Shown: one piece after another, positions 2,914 to 54,338 of the stretch
Position numbering within the stretch: position 1 is the stretch's first letter
Layout: the number at the start of each line of letters is the position of its first letter
Source: Candidatus Omnitrophota bacterium
Lineage (GTDB): Bacteria; Ratteibacteria; UBA8468; B48-G9; JAFGKM01
Length of the DNA: 56,193 nucleotides
Direction of reading: 5' to 3'
NCBI GenBank assembly: GCA_016928555.1
Contig: JAFGKM010000018.1
Span: forward strand, 1 to 56,193
Notes under the pieces: model-generated
What the model was told of the DNA's origin: nothing
Seen by the model: the letters and a program-made list of their open reading frames with translations, nothing else
Databases searched by the model: none
Made by a program: the position numbers and the translations under genes

Positions 2914-2983
2914 TATTCCTCTCCCCTCGGGGCTTGTCCGCCGTAGCCTTGGCGTAGGCGGGGAAAGGGTCAGGGTGAGGGGG
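2914..2983. repeat. Dispersed palindromic repeat, family R2, composite form
   Basis: The R2 arms (CCTCTCCCCTCGGGG and GGGTGAGGGGG) enclose an inner palindrome GTCCGCCGTAGCCTTGGCG. The same nested arrangement is seen at 3127 and 7709. The right end overlaps the 3' end of ileS and encodes its terminal residues (ITPSP) and stop codon. Confidence 0.85.
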
Positions 2984-5759
2984 TAATTCCGTCGTCTTTA
3001 AGGACCTGCCGGCATTTGGAGCATAGTTCCGGAGTATCTCCGGACCCGACTTCCGGAAAATGCACCCAGCATCTCCGGCATTTGCCGAACAAGGTCTTCT
3101 CCACGGTTATCTCCAGCCATTTATCTCCCTCTACCCTTTGGGGAGAGGGCATGCCTGCCGAAGCCTCGGCGTAGGCAGGTTGGGGTGAGGGGGACAGGAC
3201 AACCTCGGAGACGATAAAGAGTCCTGAAAGCCCTTCAAAACTTTTCAGGAATCCGAAAGTGTCTTTGTCAGCGGCAATAGTCACTTTTGCTTCAAGGCTG
3301 CTTCCTACAACCTTGCTTTCCCTCTGCTCCTCTATTTTTTTAAGCACCTGCTTCCTAATTTCAAAAAACCGCTCCCACCTTTCAAGGACGGTTTTATCGG
3401 CAGTTTCGGTTTCAGGCCAGTTTTCGAGAAAAACGCTGGTCTGCGCTTTCCACGGAAGGAGCTGATAGGCTTCTTCCGCGGTGAAAGATAGTATCGGCGC
3501 TATGATTTTCAGCAGTGTGTTCAAAATCAGATACAGTACGGTTTGCGCCGACTTTCTTTCCGGGGAGTTTTTGCTGAAGGTGTAGAGCCTGTCCTTCAGG
3601 TGGTCCAGGTAAAAAGAGGAAAGATATATATTGCAGTAGTTGTGCAGTTCCTCGTACGCCTTGTTGAATGCGAATTTTTCATAATGCGCGGTAACGAAGG
3701 AAACAATTTCTTTAAGCTTTTCCACCGCCCACCGGTCGGCTCCCTGAAGGGCTGATTCTTCAACTGCGTCTGCGGGTTCAAAACCGTGAAGGTTGCCCAG
3801 GAGAAAACGGAGGGTGTTGCGTATATTCCTGTAAGACATAACAAGGTTTTTTACTATGCCTTCCGAGATTCGTATATCCTGCTGGTAGTTTTCCGCTACA
3901 CTCCATATTCGCAGTATCTCGGCGCCGTGTTTTTTGATGAGTTCAGCCGGCATTATTACATTGCCCATGGATTTGCTCATCTTTCTGCCCTCGGCGTCAA
4001 CTACGAATCCGTGCGTCAGTACGGTTTTATACGGGGCTTGTTTTTTGATGCCGCAGGAGGTTATGAGGGAGGTTTGAAACCATCCTCTGTGCTGGTCGCT
4101 CCCCTCCAGGTAAAGGTCTGCCGGCCATCTCAATCCGTCGGATTCCTTAAGCACCGCAAGGTGGCTGACCCCGGAATCAAACCATACGTCAAGGATATCT
4201 TTCTCTTTGCTGAATTCCCCTTTCCCGCAGAAAGGGCAGGTGAATCCTTCCGGCAGGAGCTCTTTCTCCGTTTTCTCCATCCATATATCGGCTCCGTGTT
4301 TTCTTACAAGCGTTTCTATGCGAGAGACAGACTCTTGTGTAATAACGGATTTTCCGCAACCCTTGCAGTAGAATACCGGTATGGGTACTCCCCACAGCCT
4401 CTGTCTTGAAAGGCACCAGTCTGGCCTTAAGCCCACCATTGACGAAATCCTGTTTTTACCCTCTGCGGGCACCCACCGGGTTTTTTCAATCTCATCGTTC
4501 AGAGTGTCTCTTAGCCGGTCGTGGTCTATCTTCATGAACCATTGTTTAGTGCTTCTGAATATCACAGGTCTTTTACATCGCCAGCAGTGGGGGTATGAAT
4601 GGCTTATCTCCTCGCTGTAAAAAAGCGCTCCGTTTTGTTCCAGTTTTTCTATTATGAGCCTGTCCGCGTCAAACACCCTCGTTCCCGCAAACTCTTTCAC
4701 CTCTTCCGTGAACCTTCCTTTTTCGTCCACGGGGGACAGTATCTCAAGATTGTTTTTAAGCCCCGCATAATAATCCTCTTCCCCGTGCCCGGGAGCGGAA
4801 TGTACGCATCCGGTGCCGTCTTCGGATGACACGAAATCGGCAAGTATGATGCGGGATTCCCTCGTTACCAGAGGGTTTGAATAGGTATAGCCCTCAAGCT
4901 CCTCCCCCTTAAAAGTTTTTATTACCGAAGGATTGAATCCCCGTTTTCCCATAACCTCTTTCAGACGTTTCTCCGCCAGTATGTACCTGCCCTCTCCCGT
5001 ATCGGCAAGAACGTATTTCAGTTCCGGGTGCACAGCTATGGCCGTATTCGCGGGAAGAGTCCACGGCGTTGTTGTCCATATCAGGAAAGAAACATTCTCT
5101 TCTTTGCCTCCGGCTGCCGGGAATTTTACGTATATTGCAGGCGCTTTTTTGTCGGCGTATTCTATTTCCGCTTCGGCAAGGGCGGTTTCGCACGATATGC
5201 ACCAGTAGATGGGCTTGTATGCCTGGTAGATATATCCGGAAAAGGCAAGCTCCCCGAAAGCTTTTATTATATCCGCTTCGTAGTCCGGGCGCAGGGTGAG
5301 ATACGGGTTTTCCCAGTCTCCGAGGACGCCTAAACGCTGAAACTCTTTTTTCTGTATATTTACGAATTTTTTTGCGTATTCCGCCGCTTTTTTTCTGAAC
5401 TCCAGTACGTCGACATCGCCTTTTCTTGTTTTCAACTCCTTGAAAACCTGGTGTTCTATCGGCATGCCGTGGCAGTCCCATCCCGGCTTGTAAGGGGAAT
5501 AAAAGCCCCGCAGGCATCGGTATTTTACAACCACATCCTTCAGAATTTTATTGAGGGCGGTTCCGAGATGTATATGCCCGTTTGCATAAGGCGGTCCGTC
5601 ATGAAGAATATATGCCGGCCGCTCCGCATTTTTTTCAATAATCCGGCGATATATCTTTTTATCTTCCCATAACCGCAGGAATTCCGGCTCTCTTTCATTG
5701 AGATTGCCTTTCATGGGAAAGCCTGTTTTCGGCAAATAGACACTTTTCGAATAATCCAT
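2970..5759 (-). CDS. ileS: Isoleucyl-tRNA synthetase
   Basis: Charges tRNA-Ile; class Ia aminoacyl-tRNA synthetase of 929 residues. The HIGH-type signature is GHIHLG at residues 61-66 and KMSKS is at 593-597. The editing (CP1) domain lies between them. A C-terminal zinc finger has CRRC and CSKC pairs. Two repeat-derived segments are visible. An in-frame insertion at about residues 857-878 (LSPSPQPAYAEASAGMPSPQ) is encoded by a composite R2 repeat, just before the zinc finger, and the last residues ITPSP come from another copy. The reading frame survives both. The start has AAAGGAG nine bases upstream, supplied by a further repeat. Mupirocin sensitivity cannot be judged from this. Confidence 0.98.
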   Translation of the reverse strand: MDYSKSVYLPKTGFPMKGNLNEREPEFLRLWEDKKIYRRIIEKNAERPAYILHDGPPYANGHIHLGTALNKILKDVVVKYRCLRGFYSPYKPGWDCHGMPIEHQVFKELKTRKGDVDVLEFRKKAAEYAKKFVNIQKKEFQRLGVLGDWENPYLTLRPDYEADIIKAFGELAFSGYIYQAYKPIYWCISCETALAEAEIEYADKKAPAIYVKFPAAGGKEENVSFLIWTTTPWTLPANTAIAVHPELKYVLADTGEGRYILAEKRLKEVMGKRGFNPSVIKTFKGEELEGYTYSNPLVTRESRIILADFVSSEDGTGCVHSAPGHGEEDYYAGLKNNLEILSPVDEKGRFTEEVKEFAGTRVFDADRLIIEKLEQNGALFYSEEISHSYPHCWRCKRPVIFRSTKQWFMKIDHDRLRDTLNDEIEKTRWVPAEGKNRISSMVGLRPDWCLSRQRLWGVPIPVFYCKGCGKSVITQESVSRIETLVRKHGADIWMEKTEKELLPEGFTCPFCGKGEFSKEKDILDVWFDSGVSHLAVLKESDGLRWPADLYLEGSDQHRGWFQTSLITSCGIKKQAPYKTVLTHGFVVDAEGRKMSKSMGNVIMPAELIKKHGAEILRIWSVAENYQQDIRISEGIVKNLVMSYRNIRNTLRFLLGNLHGFEPADAVEESALQGADRWAVEKLKEIVSFVTAHYEKFAFNKAYEELHNYCNIYLSSFYLDHLKDRLYTFSKNSPERKSAQTVLYLILNTLLKIIAPILSFTAEEAYQLLPWKAQTSVFLENWPETETADKTVLERWERFFEIRKQVLKKIEEQRESKVVGSSLEAKVTIAADKDTFGFLKSFEGLSGLFIVSEVVLSPSPQPAYAEASAGMPSPQRVEGDKWLEITVEKTLFGKCRRCWVHFPEVGSGDTPELCSKCRQVLKDDGITPSP
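3127..3193. repeat. Composite R2 repeat inserted in frame within ileS
   Basis: The arms CCCTCTACCCTTTGGGGAGA and GGTTGGGGTGAGGGGGA enclose an inner palindrome, TGCCTGCCGAAGCCTCGGC followed by GTAGGCAGG. The length and frame leave the ileS reading frame open, and the translated segment reads PAYAEASAG. The intergenic copies at 2914 and 7709 have the same nested architecture. Confidence 0.9.
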
Positions 5760-7668: not shown

Positions 7669-7708
7669 AAACCGGGGCTCGGGACCAGGGAAAAACCCGC
7701 CTCTTTTA

Positions 7709-7776
7709 ATTCCTCTCCCCTTGGGGCATGTCCGCAGTAGACTTATCGTAAGCGGGGAGAGGATAGAGGTGAGGGG
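7709..7776. repeat. Composite R2 repeat between trpE and trpG
   Basis: TCCTCTCCCCTTGGGG and GGGGAGAGGATAGAGGTGAG enclose an inner imperfect palindrome (GTCCGCAGTAGACTTATCGT...). The nested form is the same as at 2914 and inside ileS. Confidence 0.85.
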
Positions 7777-7814
7777 TAAAGGTTTTCCCGAACCCCTGAT
7801 CCCGAGGAGTTAAA

Positions 7815-8433: not shown

Positions 8434-8478
8434 ACCCCTCTTAATCCCTCCTTTGCAAAGGGGAGTATGGGGGGATTT
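8434..8478. repeat. Dispersed repeat, family R3
   Basis: AACCCCTCTTAATCCCTCCT, then TTGCAAAGGGGAGTATGGGGGG. Copies with the same TATGGGGGGATTT end lie at 26945 and 29982; a more divergent one is at 34118. Confidence 0.8.
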
Positions 8479-9333: not shown

Positions 9334-9361
9334 TTATTCCAAACACTTATGTATAGCATTT

Positions 9362-9414
9362 TGTAGCGGTGGCATTTATGCCACGCTTTTTGTGCGATGA
9401 ATCGCACCGCTACA
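9362..9414. repeat. Dispersed palindromic repeat, family R1, complete copy
   Basis: TGTAGCGGTGGCATTTATGC at the left and GAATCGCACCGCTACA at the right form 10-bp inverted ends. Each half also carries its own hairpin (GTGGCATTTATGCCAC and GTGCGATGAATCGCAC). It lies between the divergent kdsB and nikR genes. Confidence 0.9.
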
Positions 9415-9437
9415 GTTCACACAACTCTGAAGATTGT

Positions 9438-11013: not shown

Positions 11014-11063
11014 TTCCCCTCTCTGCTCCTCTCCCCTTGGGGGAGAGGTTAAGGGTGAGGGGT
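11014..11063. repeat. Dispersed R2 repeat between purL and purM
   Basis: TTCCCCTCTCTGCTCCTCTC, then CCCTTGGGGGAGAGG and GGGTGAGGGG. It ends one base before the purL stop codon and fills the whole purL-purM gap. Confidence 0.9.
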
Positions 11064-11064
11064 A

Positions 11065-13395
11065 TCATTTTCCTTTCCAGTGTTTTGCAAGTTCGGACAG
11101 GGGGATGTCAAAAATCTTTTTCCCTTTTATAGAACCGGAAAATCTTTTCTCTTTTGTCGTCATTCCCACGGGGAGAAGTTCAACGCCGTATTTTTTACAT
11201 ACCTCTTTCAGTTTCGCCTCATCTCTTTTTGCAGCCTCCAGCACATATCCCGGCGTTTCGCTGAAAAGAGCGTAATCCGGACGTAAACTACTTACGTCCG
11301 ACAAATCGGTTATCTCCGCCCCGACCTTTCCGCCTCCCATTATCAGCATCCGTACAAGGGCACCGGCAAGCCCCCCGTTTTCAATAACCGCGGAGGCTTT
11401 CACCAGATTTTTCCCAGCCGCTTCCAGCGCCGCATACTCCAATTTTCCCGCTTCAGCCGGTGAAATGGAAGGCGTATTATTTCCCGTCCTGCCTTTAAGC
11501 AGGGCATATTCGGAGCCCTTGAATTCAGCTTTGCGCCTGCCTGCAAGGAAGAGAATATTCCCGGCATTTTTTATGCCGGTAGTCACGGTTTTGCCGTAGT
11601 CTTGAGTATAGCCGAAGACGACAGGGACAAGGGAAGGGTCAACGGGTTCTTCTTTCCCTCCGCTGATATATGTGTTTTTGAGCGATACGTTGCCGGCAAC
11701 AACGGCCATAGGCTGTTTTTCCCCGTACAGCGGAATTCTGCAGGCTTTGTTCAGCCCGTCTATGCCTTTGTCAAAGCAGTAGTAGTGTTCCGGGTTGTCG
11801 GGGTTTCCGTAGTTGCATCCGTCCGCCGCCGCGAGAGGTTTCAGTCCCGCCGCCGCAAGTTTCAGCCGACCCATGACTGTTGCGAGATACGCCTGCTCTT
11901 CCGCAGAGCCGTTTCTTCCGTGTATGGATTTTCCTCCGAATACGAGAGCAACGCCTATCCGCTTGTTTTTTGCCGAGGTTTTTTCATTCTTCAGCGGGGC
12001 AAGGACGCAGACATCTGTTTCTTCGGGGGTTGTAATGATATAGGACGGTTTTTTGTCTTTAAGAATTTTAAACACATCCGACCGCGAATAGACATTTTTT
12101 GAGCCGATGACTTTGAGTATCTCCTTTGACAAAGACGCTGGAGGCGCAACTGAAAACGCCGGTTCTTTTCCTGATTTCAGTTTTTTTACTTTGGGTTTAT
12201 AGACAGGGGCGCCGGTGATAAGGCTCACGGGGATGTCGCAGTAGACAGTGTTTTTGTCTTTCATAACGAACCTGTCTTCTCCCAGCACTCTTCCTATAAC
12301 GGCAATTTTGCCCCCGTATTTCCTGAATTTTTTGTCGTTTTTGAAAATTTTCAGTATGACCCGGGCGGCTTTGTCGGAAGCGATAATCATGTTTCGCTCC
12401 TGGTCCTCTCCGACGGCAAGCGCCAGCGGATGCACCTTCATTCCCGCAGGGACAGGCACCTTATCCGTGTCTATTTCAATGCCGTAACCCCTCTCGGAGA
12501 CCTGTTCGGCCGTTGAGCAGGTCAGCCCTGCCGCTCCCATGTCCTTGATCGACATCTGCGACAGAAGTTTCTTGCGCTTTAATTCCGCCTTGACTTTTTC
12601 AAATACGTCAAAAGTGGTTTTTTCAAGCATAGGGTTTGAGCCGAACTCTATCTCCTTTTTCTTGCCGGCTTCAAATGCCTGCGATGCGAAGGATGCGCCG
12701 CCTACCGCAGCTCCCGCAGTCGGCTTGCCGACGTAAATAAGATTGTATCCTACGGAATTTTTGGGGACAATGTTGGGAATCAGGTCTTCTTTTTTCACCA
12801 CGCCTAAAGCCGAGACGTTCATAAGGCAGTTGTGCCGGAAGGAGTCTTCGTAATAAAGGTCAAGGGCAAGAAGAGGAATTTCCATCGCCCTGCAGTATGC
12901 CGCCGCGCCCTTCATGGCGCCGCTTAGCAGGTCTTTGGAATTTTTTTCCGCCTTCGGGCCGTATCTAAGAGATGCTCCTACTCCGATATTCACCGCTCCC
13001 ATGGCAAATATGTCGCGAAGTATCCCTCCCGCTCCGGTCGCCGCTCCGTCATAGGGATTGATTAAGGTGGGGTGGTTATGGGACTCTATCTTGAAAACCG
13101 CGCAATACCCGCTGTTTCCTATCCTGACCGCTCCCGCGTCGCTTTTTTCACTCTGCAGGACATACCGGTTGTTTTTTATCAATTGCCTGAGTTTGTTTTT
13201 TGAATGCTTGTAGGAACAGTGGTCCGACCATAAGCTGTCCAGAATATACGCTTCCGAGATGCTGAGAGGCTTTTTCGCTCTCTTCTGGGCTGTCCTGAAC
13301 TCTTCAATTGTAAGTCCCCAGCTGTTTTCTTTCCGAACTTTCTCAAACTCTCTGCCCGACATCCTTATAAAATCAAACTTTTTTTCATTTTCCAT
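11065..13395 (-). CDS. purL: Phosphoribosylformylglycinamidine synthase, large subunit type
   Basis: Converts FGAR to FGAM with ATP and ammonia. The encoded 776 residues fit the short PurL of the PurLQS system, which lacks its own glutaminase; purQ and purS are not in the window. ESHNHPTLINPYDGAATG is the conserved active-site loop, and KDMGAAGLTCSTAE and ADGCNYGNPDNPEHY are further family segments. The start ATG at 13395 follows GGGAGGAGATAC. An in-frame TTG upstream would lie inside the inserted repeat element and is rejected. The N-terminus is thus 20 bases from the left end of that 81-bp element. Confidence 0.95.
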   Translation of the reverse strand: MENEKKFDFIRMSGREFEKVRKENSWGLTIEEFRTAQKRAKKPLSISEAYILDSLWSDHCSYKHSKNKLRQLIKNNRYVLQSEKSDAGAVRIGNSGYCAVFKIESHNHPTLINPYDGAATGAGGILRDIFAMGAVNIGVGASLRYGPKAEKNSKDLLSGAMKGAAAYCRAMEIPLLALDLYYEDSFRHNCLMNVSALGVVKKEDLIPNIVPKNSVGYNLIYVGKPTAGAAVGGASFASQAFEAGKKKEIEFGSNPMLEKTTFDVFEKVKAELKRKKLLSQMSIKDMGAAGLTCSTAEQVSERGYGIEIDTDKVPVPAGMKVHPLALAVGEDQERNMIIASDKAARVILKIFKNDKKFRKYGGKIAVIGRVLGEDRFVMKDKNTVYCDIPVSLITGAPVYKPKVKKLKSGKEPAFSVAPPASLSKEILKVIGSKNVYSRSDVFKILKDKKPSYIITTPEETDVCVLAPLKNEKTSAKNKRIGVALVFGGKSIHGRNGSAEEQAYLATVMGRLKLAAAGLKPLAAADGCNYGNPDNPEHYYCFDKGIDGLNKACRIPLYGEKQPMAVVAGNVSLKNTYISGGKEEPVDPSLVPVVFGYTQDYGKTVTTGIKNAGNILFLAGRRKAEFKGSEYALLKGRTGNNTPSISPAEAGKLEYAALEAAGKNLVKASAVIENGGLAGALVRMLIMGGGKVGAEITDLSDVSSLRPDYALFSETPGYVLEAAKRDEAKLKEVCKKYGVELLPVGMTTKEKRFSGSIKGKKIFDIPLSELAKHWKGK

Positions 13396-13414: not shown

Positions 13415-13495
13415 GGGGTCAACTCTTTACACTTGACATTTTAGATAATTAACTTAAGCGAATAACGAATCTGTCAAGTGTCAAGAGTTGACCCC
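13415..13495. mobile_element. 81-bp non-autonomous REP/MITE-like element between msbA and purL
   Basis: Left end GGGGTCAACTCTTTACACTT and right end AAGTGTCAAGAGTTGACCCC are inverted repeats with one mismatch over 24 bp. They match the termini of the transposase element at 53321-54334. The interior is about 33 AT-rich bases without coding capacity. No target-site duplication is seen, as expected for a Y1 (HUH) transposase. The right end supplies the last residues (GVNS) and stop codon of msbA. Confidence 0.85.
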
Positions 13496-21044: not shown

Positions 21045-21070
21045 TTTTTCACCTTTCCCCTGATGTTTTC

Positions 21071-21123
21071 GTAGCGGCGGCATTTATGCCACGAACAACC
21101 GTGCGATGAATCGCACCGCTACA
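21071..21123. repeat. Dispersed palindromic repeat, family R1, complete copy
   Basis: GTAGCGGCGGCATTTATGCC at the left, GTGCGATGAATCGCACCGCT at the right. It fills the gap between nadA and iscU. Confidence 0.9.
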
Positions 21124-21137
21124 ATTCCAAATATAAT

Positions 21138-23237: not shown

Positions 23238-23349
23238 GTGCGATGAATCCTTTAGTGCGCCAAAGTTTCAGTGGTGTAGCACCGCTGCATTGTCGGATAA
23301 ATCCGACCGCTACAAACCCGTTTCTGTAGCGGTGGCATTTATGACACGG
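23238..23349. repeat. Dispersed repeat, family R1, rearranged copy
   Basis: The right half nearly duplicates the copy at 1645-1718 (GTCGGATAAATCCGACCGCT, then TGTAGCGGTGGCATTTATG). The left half has a GTGCGATGAATC start interrupted by an unrelated 30-base segment. Confidence 0.8.
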
Positions 23350-23354
23350 AATTT

Positions 23355-26923: not shown

Positions 26924-26944
26924 TGTTTCCTCCTTTACCCTGAG

Positions 26945-26982
26945 TCCCCCCCTTTTGATAAAGGGGGGTATGGGGGGATTTC
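26945..26982. repeat. Dispersed repeat, family R3, in the hcp leader
   Basis: TCCCCCCCTTTTGATAAAGG, then GGGGTATGGGGGGATTT. The hairpin CCCCCCTTTTGATAAAGGGGGG would form in the hcp 5' untranslated region. Confidence 0.85.
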
Positions 26983-28110: not shown

Positions 28111-28143
28111 AAAAAAAGGATAAAATAACATCCTCTCATTCTT

Positions 28144-28181
28144 TTCCTCTCCCCTCGGGGGAGAGGATTAAGGTGAGGGGG
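28144..28181. repeat. Dispersed R2 repeat between E1 alpha and E1 beta
   Basis: TTCCTCTCCCCTCGGGGGAG, then AGGATTAAGGTGAGGGG. The hairpin would lie within the bicistronic mRNA. Confidence 0.9.
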
Positions 28182-28214
28182 ATGAGTCCGGGCAGATAAG
28201 GAGATTGTGAACGG

Positions 28215-29959: not shown

Positions 29960-29981
29960 TACCGAATTGATTTCATCCATT

Positions 29982-30020
29982 CTTAATCCCCTCTTTGCAA
30001 AGGGGGGTATGGGGGGATTT
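29982..30020. repeat. Dispersed repeat, family R3
   Basis: TTAATCCCCTCTTTGCAAAG, then GGGGGTATGGGGGGATTT. It lies between the CBM9-like gene and tRNA-Cys. The rest of 29960-30437 holds the tRNA gene and its promoter; nothing else is recognised. Confidence 0.85.
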
Positions 30021-34060: not shown

Positions 34061-34117
34061 TTTTTTGGAAGGGCGTTTTAAAATGCGTCTTGATAAAGAG
34101 AGCGGGCACAATGAGAA

Positions 34118-34164
34118 ATCCCCCTGTTTCCCCCTTTGTCAAAGGGGGAATTTAAAGGGGATTT
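34118..34164. repeat. Dispersed repeat, family R3, divergent copy
   Basis: TCCCCCTGTTTCCCCCTTTG, then TCAAAGGGGGAATTTAAAGG. The hairpin CCCCCTTTGTCAAAGGGGG ends about 30 bases before the start of the DUF4380 gene. Confidence 0.75.
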
Positions 34165-50611: not shown

Positions 50612-50634
50612 GTGCGATGAATCGCACCGCTACA
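50612..50634. repeat. Dispersed repeat, family R1, half copy
   Basis: GTGCGATGAATCGCACCGCT plus ACA, i.e. one half of the R1 element, between the FHA gene and clpB. Confidence 0.85.
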
Positions 50635-50680
50635 CATGAATTGAAACCGGACAGAACGGTTTGACTTCTTGAGAAAATCC

Positions 50681-50746: not shown

Positions 50747-53335
50747 ATGGAAAACATAAACGAAAAACTTACGGTTAAGGCACAGGAAACTTTGATGGGG
50801 GCGCAGTCCGCGGCGCAGGAAAGAAGCCACCAGGCAGTGGATTCCGTTCACCTGCTTTTTTCTCTTGTCGGGGGCGATGAAACAACGGCCGACATTCTGG
50901 GGCAGATGAACGTAAAAACCGAGAGTCTAAAAAAAGATATAACTGCCGCGCTTGATAAAATTCCGCAGGTGACCGGACCCGGCTCAGGAAATCTGTATAT
51001 CACCCCTGCCTTAAACAATTTATTAACCTTAGCTCTCAAAGAATCAAAATCCCTGGGAGACGAGTATGTCAGCGTTGAACACCTTTTGCTCGGTTTGGCC
51101 GCGGCGGAGTCGGGCGTTCAGGAACTTCTGAAAAAGCACGATATCTTCAGGGAGCGCGTCCTTAAAATAATACAGCAGATGAGAAACGGGGAGAAGGTGA
51201 CGGATAAAAATGCCGAAACAAAATATAAAGCGCTTGAAAAATATACGAGGGATTTCACAGACCTTGCCCGCAAGGGGAAGCTTGATCCTGTAATTGGAAG
51301 GGACGAAGAAATCAGAAGGGTTATCCAGGTGCTGTCAAGGAGGACAAAGAACAACCCTGTGCTCATAGGAGAGGCGGGCGTGGGCAAGACCGCCATAGTT
51401 GAAGGCCTTGCAAGAAGGATTGTCTCAGGAGATGTCCCCGAAGGGCTGAAAAACAAGAGCGTTCTCGTTCTTGACCTCGGTGCGCTTGTTGCCGGCACGA
51501 AGTACAGGGGTGAGTTTGAAGACCGTCTGAAAGCCTTGCTGAAAGAACTTGAGAAAAAGGAAGGCGAGGTTGTTCTTTTCATAGACGAACTGCATACCCT
51601 TGTGGGGGCGGGCGCGGCCGAAGGCGCTATAGACGCTTCAAATATGCTGAAGCCTGCTCTTGCGCGGGGCTCGTTGAAGTGCATCGGAGCGACCACTCTT
51701 GACGAATACAGGAAGCACATAGAGAAGGACAGGGCTTTGGAAAGAAGGTTCCAGGTCGTATATGTAAAAGAGCCTTCCGTAGAAGAGACCGTATCAATTT
51801 TGAGGGGGCTTAAGGAAAGGTATGAGGTTCATCACGGAGTCAAAATAACCGACAGCGCTCTTGTTGCCGCATCCATGCTCTCCCACAGGTATATAACCGG
51901 CAGGTTCCTTCCGGATAAGGCGATAGACCTTATTGACGAAGCGGCGAGCCGCCTGAGGATAGAGACAGACAGCATGCCTGCCGAGCTTGATGAGACCGAA
52001 AGGAAGATAAGGCAGCTGGAGATAGAAAAACAGGCGCTTAAAAGGGAATCGAGGCCTGAGATAAAAGAACGCCTTTCCCGCATTGAAAAGGACATGGAAA
52101 GTCTTAAGAAAGACAGAGAGAAAATGCACTCAAAATGGCTTGCGGAGAAAAAAATTGTTGAACGAATGAGGAAGATAAAGGGCGACATAGAATCCGCTAA
52201 AACCATCATAGAGAAGGCGGAGCGTGAGGGTGACCTCGGGAAGGCGGCCGAATACAAATACGGGAAACTTGTAGAACTGCAGAAAGACATGGAGGAGGAG
52301 ACTTCTAAGCTTAAAAAGACGCAGGCAAAAGACGGCGGACTGCTTAAAGACGAGGTGACAGAAGAGGATATCGCTGAGATAATCTCCAAGTGGACAGGCA
52401 TTCCTGTTTCAAGAATGCTTGAAGGCGAGGTTGAAAAACTCATAAAGATGGAAGAGCGGCTTACGGCAAGGGTTGTCGGACAGAACGAGGCGATAACAGC
52501 GGTTTCCAATGCAATAAGAAGAAACAGGGCGGGTCTTTCCGACCCGAACAGGCCCATAGGCTCTTTTATCTTTCTGGGCCCTACCGGAGTGGGCAAGACG
52601 GAACTGGCAAAGGCGCTGGCGGGGATATTGTTCAACGATGAAAACGCCCTGTTGAGGATTGACATGAGCGAGTATATGGAAAAGTTTTCGGTCTCGCGGC
52701 TCATAGGGGCGCCTCCGGGATACGTAGGCTATGAAGAGGGCGGCCAGTTAACCGAAAAAGTGAGAAGAAGACCGTACAGTGTTATCCTTCTGGACGAGAT
52801 AGAAAAGGCGCACGCGGAGGTTTTTAACGTTCTCCTGCAACTGATGGACGAAGGCAGGATGACCGACGGGCAGGGAAGAACCGTTGATTTCAGAAACACT
52901 GTTATAACAATGACTTCCAATATAGGAAGCCAGTATATCACCATGTTCAAGGACGAAGGCACAATGAAGGAGAAGATAGCTGATATCCTGAAAAGTACAT
53001 TCAGACCCGAATTTCTAAACAGGGTGGACGAAATTATTACCTTCAATAAACTTAAAAAAGACGACCTGATGAAAATAGTGGATATTCAGACGGCATACTT
53101 GCAGAAGCGCCTTGATGTGAAGAAGATAAACATCAGCTTCTCTGATGCCGCAAGGGCGTATCTTGCGGAAAAGGGATACGACGAGGTTTACGGAGCAAGG
53201 CCTCTTAAGAGGCTGATACAAAAAGAGATAGAAAACCCGCTTGCTTTAAAGGTCCTTGCCGGCGAGGTAAAAGAGGGCGGCAGTGTTCTTGTAGACCTGA
53301 AAGACGGCTCCCCTGTTTTTGGGGTCAACTCTTGA
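50747..53335 (+). CDS. clpB: ClpB-type disaggregase
   Basis: 862 residues. An N-terminal Clp repeat domain, the first AAA+ module with Walker A GEAGVGKT (K214), a coiled-coil middle domain (about 405-520) and the second AAA+ module with GPTGVGKT (K617). The ClpB middle domain and the absence of a ClpP-binding IGF/IGL loop show a disaggregase rather than a protease partner. With DnaK it resolves aggregates after heat stress. The last residues (FGVNS) and the stop codon come from the left end of the transposable element, so the gene was slightly altered at its C-terminus. The start has no clear Shine-Dalgarno sequence. Confidence 0.97.
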
Positions 53336-54334
53336 CACTTGACAAAACTTCTTTTTCTATCTTAGATAGGCGTTCTCCAAGAACAGTATCTTGCGTTGCT
53401 TTTTCTTCAAGGCGTTTTACTGTTTGCAGTATGCCGGAACCATCCCTATAGCCAAAATGTTTTCCCACATCCACAAGCCTTTCTCCTCCAAGCCGCACCC
53501 GTGCCCAAATCTGTATTTTCTTATCCTGTTCTTTTTCTAAGGCTTTTGCTATTTTGAATGTGATGTCTCCGTGTTCCTTCTTGGCCATCCACCGCTCTTC
53601 TTCATTGCCTTTTTTATCTTTTATAATCTCTTGAACTCTCTTTAATAGAGTGTCTCCTCCCAATACTATATTATTCTTAATATTATCCCAGATTTTTTCA
53701 GCTGGCTTGTTGAATCTTCTTCGAATAGAATCCATGTATGCTTTCCTGGCAGATTCTTTATCTTTTCCCCAATATTGCAACCATGACATATCGAGCCACG
53801 CTGGTCCTTTCACTGTTTCTGCATATGCTTGGTGGCTGCTCCATGGATACGCATTCAGCGTTTTCATTCTATCCGCGGGAATTGCAATATTTTTATCTTC
53901 CGGCCTCACAGGATTAAGATGTAAGTACAACGTAAGAGTTTGGGCATAAGCATCTGCATCCACCAAAATTGCTTTGAATCTTCCCTGGAAAAGGTGGCCG
54001 TATCTATTGTGCCGCCGGTTAAATCGGATTGTATACGTTACTTGAAGCCACCCTATAGATTGTGATAAATTACCTCTTGGAGTAGCTACAACAAGATGGT
54101 AGTGATTCGGCATCAAGCAATACACATGTATTTTTACTCCGAATTGCTTTGCCATTTCACTCAGTAGCGTTAAGAATATTTTATGATCCGTATTATCCCT
54201 GAATATTACCTGCCCTTCATTTCCTCTTGCAGTTATATGATAAACAGCTCCCGGGAATTCAACACGTATCTGTCTGGCCATCTTTGGATAATACTATTGT
54301 GCGGTTTTTTTGTCAAGTGTCAAGAGTTGACCCC
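53321..54334. mobile_element. RAYT (Y1 HUH) transposable element with 27-bp perfect inverted ends
   Basis: 1014 bp. The left end, GGGGTCAACTCTTGACACTT continuing GACAAAA (53321-53347), and the right end (54308-54334) are exact inverted repeats. Each end includes the small hairpin GTCAACTCTTGAC preceded by GGG, which looks like a REP unit. No target duplication flanks it (TTTTT on the left, AAGGT on the right). It lies between clpB and waaA and encodes one transposase. An 81-bp relative is at 13415-13495. Confidence 0.92.
53325..54281 (-). CDS. REP-associated tyrosine transposase (Y1_Tnp)
   Basis: 318 residues. The N-terminal Y1 domain has the HUH motif H60-Y61-H62 (MPNHYHLVV) and the probable catalytic tyrosine Y119 (YLHLNPVR); [10 protein letters not shown] is also typical. 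The C-terminal part (about 225-318, [20 protein letters not shown]) resembles a DnaA-like DNA-binding helix bundle, as in longer members. Such enzymes mobilise REP sequences by single-strand cleavage. The stop codon lies inside the left terminal repeat and overlaps the end of clpB by 11 bases on the opposite strand. Confidence 0.93.
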
Positions 54335-54338
54335 AAGG

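Follow-up and report, generated by a model that had tools for sequence, protein, structure and literature searches.

The insert in ileS

The window, a contig of 56,193 nt from a Candidatus Omnitrophota bacterium (JAFGKM010000018.1, assembly GCA_016928555.1), carries on its minus strand an isoleucyl-tRNA synthetase gene, ileS (2970–5759), whose 929-aa product matches PF00133, PF08264 and PF06827. This is the sole IleS of the source genome (G000; 94 contigs, estimated completeness 94%), the remaining matches there being far weaker paralogues. Within the gene lies a composite repeat of 67 bp (3127–3193, minus), in which a triplex motif (TM) encloses another palindrome and which codes for about 20–21 aa (857–877). 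A preliminary description of this DNA had reported an in-frame extra segment here, just ahead of the C-terminal zinc finger, and had proposed orthologue alignment as a check. Alignment with about 105 orthologues covering the region, which span the family, order and class of the query as well as unrelated phyla, bears this out: residues 857–876 (PSPQPAYAEASAGMPSPQRV) occur in our query and in no other IleS, and the orthologues that lack them include some that are 72–74% identical. For example, G006 IleS (74% identical) reads VVLS-EGDS-LE, while the query reads VVLS, 20 further residues, and then EGDKWLE. The same empty site is seen at the DNA level in G006, G010, G012 and G005.

Since the segment is absent from orthologues and the DNA of relatives is uninterrupted, it is a net insertion of about 60 nt (about 3132–3191, in frame), whose boundary can be placed only to within a few bases, since the native GAR-GGA codons look like the end of the repeat. 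Among the sampled genomes, the insertion is specific to the source genome; it cannot be dated, because the assembly of G001, the sole other searched genome of the genus, has no IleS. The whole 77-bp stretch used as a DNA query returned parts only and no second full-length copy of high identity, and no relevant literature was found on the coded peptides (PAYAEASAG, PHPNPLPQG and others).

The host repeat is a triplex motif

The segment had been taken for one palindromic repeat, a view that we replace with one of two elements, a TM as host and a palindrome, which we call B, as guest. The host is a copy of the G/C-rich intrastrand-triplex motif that Holder et al. described in 2015 (PMC4666352). 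Its consensus on the purine strand is CCCTCnCCCC, 3 nt, GGGGAGAGGG, 3 nt, GGGTGAGGGG; all three arms are common to the E. coli motif TM_ECO, as are the 3-nt second loop (TTA, CCG type) and the dispersed copies near genes. A covariance model built from 21 copies of the source genome only scored E. coli K-12 TM copies at 52.4, 44.6, 43.4 and 38.5 bits. In ileS, read on the plus strand, the pyrimidine arm Y1 (CCCTCTACCC, 3127–3136) is followed by a TTT loop (loop 1, 3137–3139) and the complementary purine arm R1 (GGGGAGAGGG, 3140–3149), with 9/10 Watson-Crick pairs between the arms, and then by the mirror purine third strand R2 (GGGTGAGGGG, 3183–3192), which would form 10/10 class II triplets with R1. 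The second loop, normally 3 nt, is 33 nt long here because B lies inside it. As the motif is defined by loops of 1–6 nt, and ordinary copies have 1–5 nt, the ileS copy is best regarded as a TM interrupted by an insertion rather than as an intact TM; the covariance model picked it up as two separate matches, of 29.9 bits (E 3.5e-6) and 18 bits (E 0.004), which exceeds chance.

The model gave 93 matches in the source genome at E <= 1e-3, some of them the two strands of one palindrome, which corresponds to roughly 75 places in a census that rests on the searches and on 3-kb stretches around the matches. The places inspected are mostly intergenic, often directly up- or downstream of genes, and no transposase associated with TM was found in this genome. 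In the window, a second composite (2913–2986, minus) has B in loop 1 and codes for the end of ileS itself (...ITPSP*, with the stop TGA at 2970–2972), and another TM copy (2369–2412, minus) closes the next gene (2362–2892), coding for its C-terminus (STPHPNPLPQGERNKR). A third composite, with a degenerate B in loop 1, is intergenic (7707–7780, minus), a further TM copy lies directly upstream of a gene (11023–11066, minus), and another has a T-A-A triple at the stem end (28141–28184, minus). The preliminary description had aligned the ileS segment with copies at 2914 and 7709 and called both intergenic. Both elements are indeed common to all three places, with B in loop 1 there and in loop 2 in ileS, and the copy at 7709 is intergenic, while that at 2914 supplies the last ileS residues and the stop codon.

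A comparison of 72 distinct parsed copies revealed covariation between third strand and hairpin. At mirror partners t8–r3, T went with T in 12/13 cases (p 1e-11), in 11 of which the paired base had changed too (T-T-A), and at t10–r1 in 18/20 (p 8e-14). Because the copies are related through subfamilies and shared descent, these p-values make the changes seem more independent than they are. Control positions that are not partners showed no significant association in the same copies (p 0.16 and 0.09). Mirror partners are unable to base-pair ordinarily, and therefore the paired changes fit a triplex; the covariation is consistent with a TM triplex.

Two other sets of repeats were noticed. Near-identical copies of CCCCCCCACCTATCTTCCTCCCCCTCGAGGGGGGAGGATAAA (L212, L213, L215 and L217–L222) appear to form a distinct TM-related subfamily, and another palindromic repeat with C/G runs (AAATCCCCC...), at 8439–8478, 26942–26981, 29981–30020 and 34115–34149 of the window, is possibly triplex-forming too.

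The guest palindrome

Palindrome B is 30 nt long, codes for PAYAEASAG in ileS and occupies 3150–3179 (minus), within loop 2 of the TM. The ileS copy matches the B pattern exactly; the source genome holds eight copies at <=3 mismatches, as against none for the reversed control pattern, and additional degenerate copies such as that at 7709. At <=1 mismatch, B was found in none of the 15 family relatives searched but recurred in three more distant members of the phylum, G033, G029 and G018; a phylum-wide search for B covered 35 genomes. Exact matches were also present in nine contigs of a viral collection.

B is hosted by TM loops (either loop 1 or loop 2), by a GTAG REP and by other hairpins, and two of its copies (L145, L146) split the GTAG REP, of the sequence that flanks a transposase gene in contig C70, at one place, GCAGGT^CTTCAGC. 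Of the 31 B copies compared, which come from several genomes and from contigs of the viral collection, 11 sit between perfect inverted repeats of >=6 bp, compared with 4.6% of mismatched flank pairs, and the observed mean was reached by 0/20000 permutations. Not all cases of B in a loop are independent, because certain TM/B composites seem to have been copied from a single one. We tentatively suggest that B could be a mobile element that favours the loops of DNA structures (triplex motifs, REPs, other hairpins) as landing sites. If so, inserted repeats, including those within genes, would become landing pads, and genes would lengthen stepwise by nested palindromes. Nesting of this kind has precedent, as REPs lying within other palindromes have been reported in a few species (PMC3733652); less expected is a preference for loops that extends over several families of host.

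In G033 (L277, L289), B is apparently translated in frame as part of two proteins, one dehydrogenase-like and the other with zinc-finger repeats like topoisomerase I. The window also contains an imperfect palindromic repeat at 712–790 (TTGTCATTGCGAAGC ... CTCGAAATGACAA), and a similar repeat hosts B in L139.

Inserts in other genes

Orthologue alignments identified further in-frame inserts in UvrA, AroD (a type I dehydroquinase), a polysaccharide deacetylase, which carries one TM and one TM/B composite, and a DUF362 protein. Counting ileS, at least five protein genes of the source genome bear inserts. One uvrA site is occupied in four species or genomes (L229, L230, L231, L234), G001, G012 and G014 included, and empty in G008, G006, G005, G003, G002 and G010. 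The uvrA inserts vary in arrangement, that of G001 being apparently another subtype. The covariance model confirms TM in uvrA of G012 and G014, and likewise in the G008 gene for the deacetylase; the uvrA and aroD inserts of G001 were assigned by eye only. Elsewhere in the source genome (contig C41, L216), an O-antigen ligase protein has a probable candidate in-frame TM insert with a longer loop 1.

Origin and tolerance of the insert

We consider it very likely that the ileS insert is a neutral or selfish in-frame composite of TM and B, tolerated in a surface turn. Either the TM came first or the composite came as one unit, and selection would have removed most TM insertions into genes. The persistence of the one in ileS presumably reflects an open frame, a net length divisible by three and a position in a surface turn between strands. 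TM copies have on average 3.6 of 6 frames open, and a good share of insertions should therefore be readable through, length permitting. The insert brings no known benefit and would work in the manner of the Rickettsia palindromic elements (RPEs) and of intragenic REPs.

It is unlikely that the insert is instead a REP moved by a REP-associated tyrosine transposase (RAYT). Two Y1 transposases are encoded in the source genome (C29:53919 and C70:7653), the first beside terminal inverted repeats in the window and the second being a RAYT gene with repeated GTAG REPs (GGTAGCCGCAGGTCTTCAGCCTGCG) on both sides (L028, around 7653–7919 of C70), a classic REPtron; intragenic GTAG REPs, moreover, have been described. 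Di Nocera et al. 2013 (PMC3733652) describe REPs in protein genes, often repair genes including uvrA and also tRNA synthetases. Unlike these intragenic GTAG/CGTC REPs, TM has no unpaired GTAG/CGTC tag, its consensus starting with CCCCTCACC and ending with GAGGG, and shows no RAYT association, as neither TM nor B copies were found adjoining either transposase gene. The REPs flanking the C70 RAYT differ from it in sequence, and the GTAG of palindrome B sits within an imperfect stem that includes CCGTAGCC and GCGTAGGC. Membership of the TM in the GTAG/CGTC REPs was rejected for want of the tag and of any TM beside transposase genes.

We also think it quite improbable that the lineage kept a longer C-terminal turn because it is useful for tRNA contact or stability. 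The length of this turn is variable in distant IleS as well (e.g. L073–L081), which suggests that additions there can be fixed. On the other hand, the inserted residues are a literal translation of a genome-wide DNA repeat that other proteins read in other frames, and the segment is predicted to be disordered.

An AlphaFold model of IleS (28-sequence alignment) has a mean pLDDT of 90.0, and the sole stretch with pLDDT <50 is 861–879, a turn between strands 852–857 and 882–888 that precedes the zinc ribbon (PF06827 at 893–919), which agrees with the orthologues and empty sites in placing the insert just ahead of the zinc finger. The site was previously said to be a domain boundary at which the insertion is tolerated; tolerance fits the model, in which the enzyme would still fold with about 20 extra residues, while the site itself is a turn rather than a strict boundary. 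The protein appears otherwise intact, as had been proposed, with all four invariant zinc-ribbon cysteine ligands present and predicted disorder limited to that turn. The insert-bearing IleS is very probably functional, as it is the only one in a genome estimated to be 94% complete.

That the insert acts as a functional RNA or terminator-like signal, lowering or timing ileS expression, seems highly improbable. The coding strand folds better than its shuffles (z -3.1) and such hairpins can affect mRNA, but Rfam has no family matching the repeat, copies occur at many positions relative to genes, and Holder et al. looked at E. coli TM and saw no connection with regulation (PMC4666352). Finally, an assembly artefact is hardly credible: wrong joins do occur at repeats and the assembly has 94 contigs, but IleS continues in a single frame on either side of the insert and both sides align with the same orthologues, where a false join would give a foreign flank, and the same pattern is seen in five genes at sites some of which are common to several species.

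Relation to known repeats

In E. coli MG1655, all 23 TM copies are described as intergenic (PMC4666352), whereas in the source genome five or more protein genes contain copies, and a second palindrome interrupts several copies. The preliminary description compared the ileS segment with the Rickettsia elements, and the likeness holds as an analogy: RPEs (PMC2229807) are likewise palindromic, both intergenic and in frame within conserved proteins, and leave the host protein apparently intact, and the repeat described here also has intergenic and in-frame copies. RPEs are, at the same time, 105–146 bp long and Rickettsia-specific (PMC2229807), whereas the ileS element is 67 bp, TM-type and nested. 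We rejected RPE membership on size and on the non-Rickettsia host. The TM also lacks the GTAG/CGTC tag; RPE-4 and RPE-6 are CGTC REPs.

Most known protein-coding palindromes come from Rickettsia, Wolbachia and genomes rich in REPs. In-frame repeat insertion as such is already known, and a TM-type member inside genes is new, as are the four further gene inserts, the uvrA site hit in four species, the third-strand covariation and the loop-preferring palindrome. These observations join intrastrand-triplex repeats, so far regarded as intergenic and associated with genome instability, with protein-coding palindromes. Genomes from several genera in one candidate phylum have such repeats within genes; sites are found both occupied and empty, and one in uvrA has been hit repeatedly. 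Protein growth by DNA repeats, tolerated positions and loop targeting therefore become testable.

A transposase gene and REPs in the window

A Y1 (IS200-like) transposase gene (53325–54281, minus) overlaps the end of a clpB-like gene and lies between perfect 29-bp terminal inverted repeats (53319–54336), similar to the tyrosine transposases flanked by terminal inverted repeats in PMC3733652. A probable miniature element derived from this transposon is present at 13415–13495. Paired GTAG-type REPs (GTAGCGGTGGCATTTATGCCAC with inverted partner GTGCGATGAATCGCACCGCTAC) occur at 1636–1720, 9359–9418, 21067–21127, 23279–23351 and 50612–50638.
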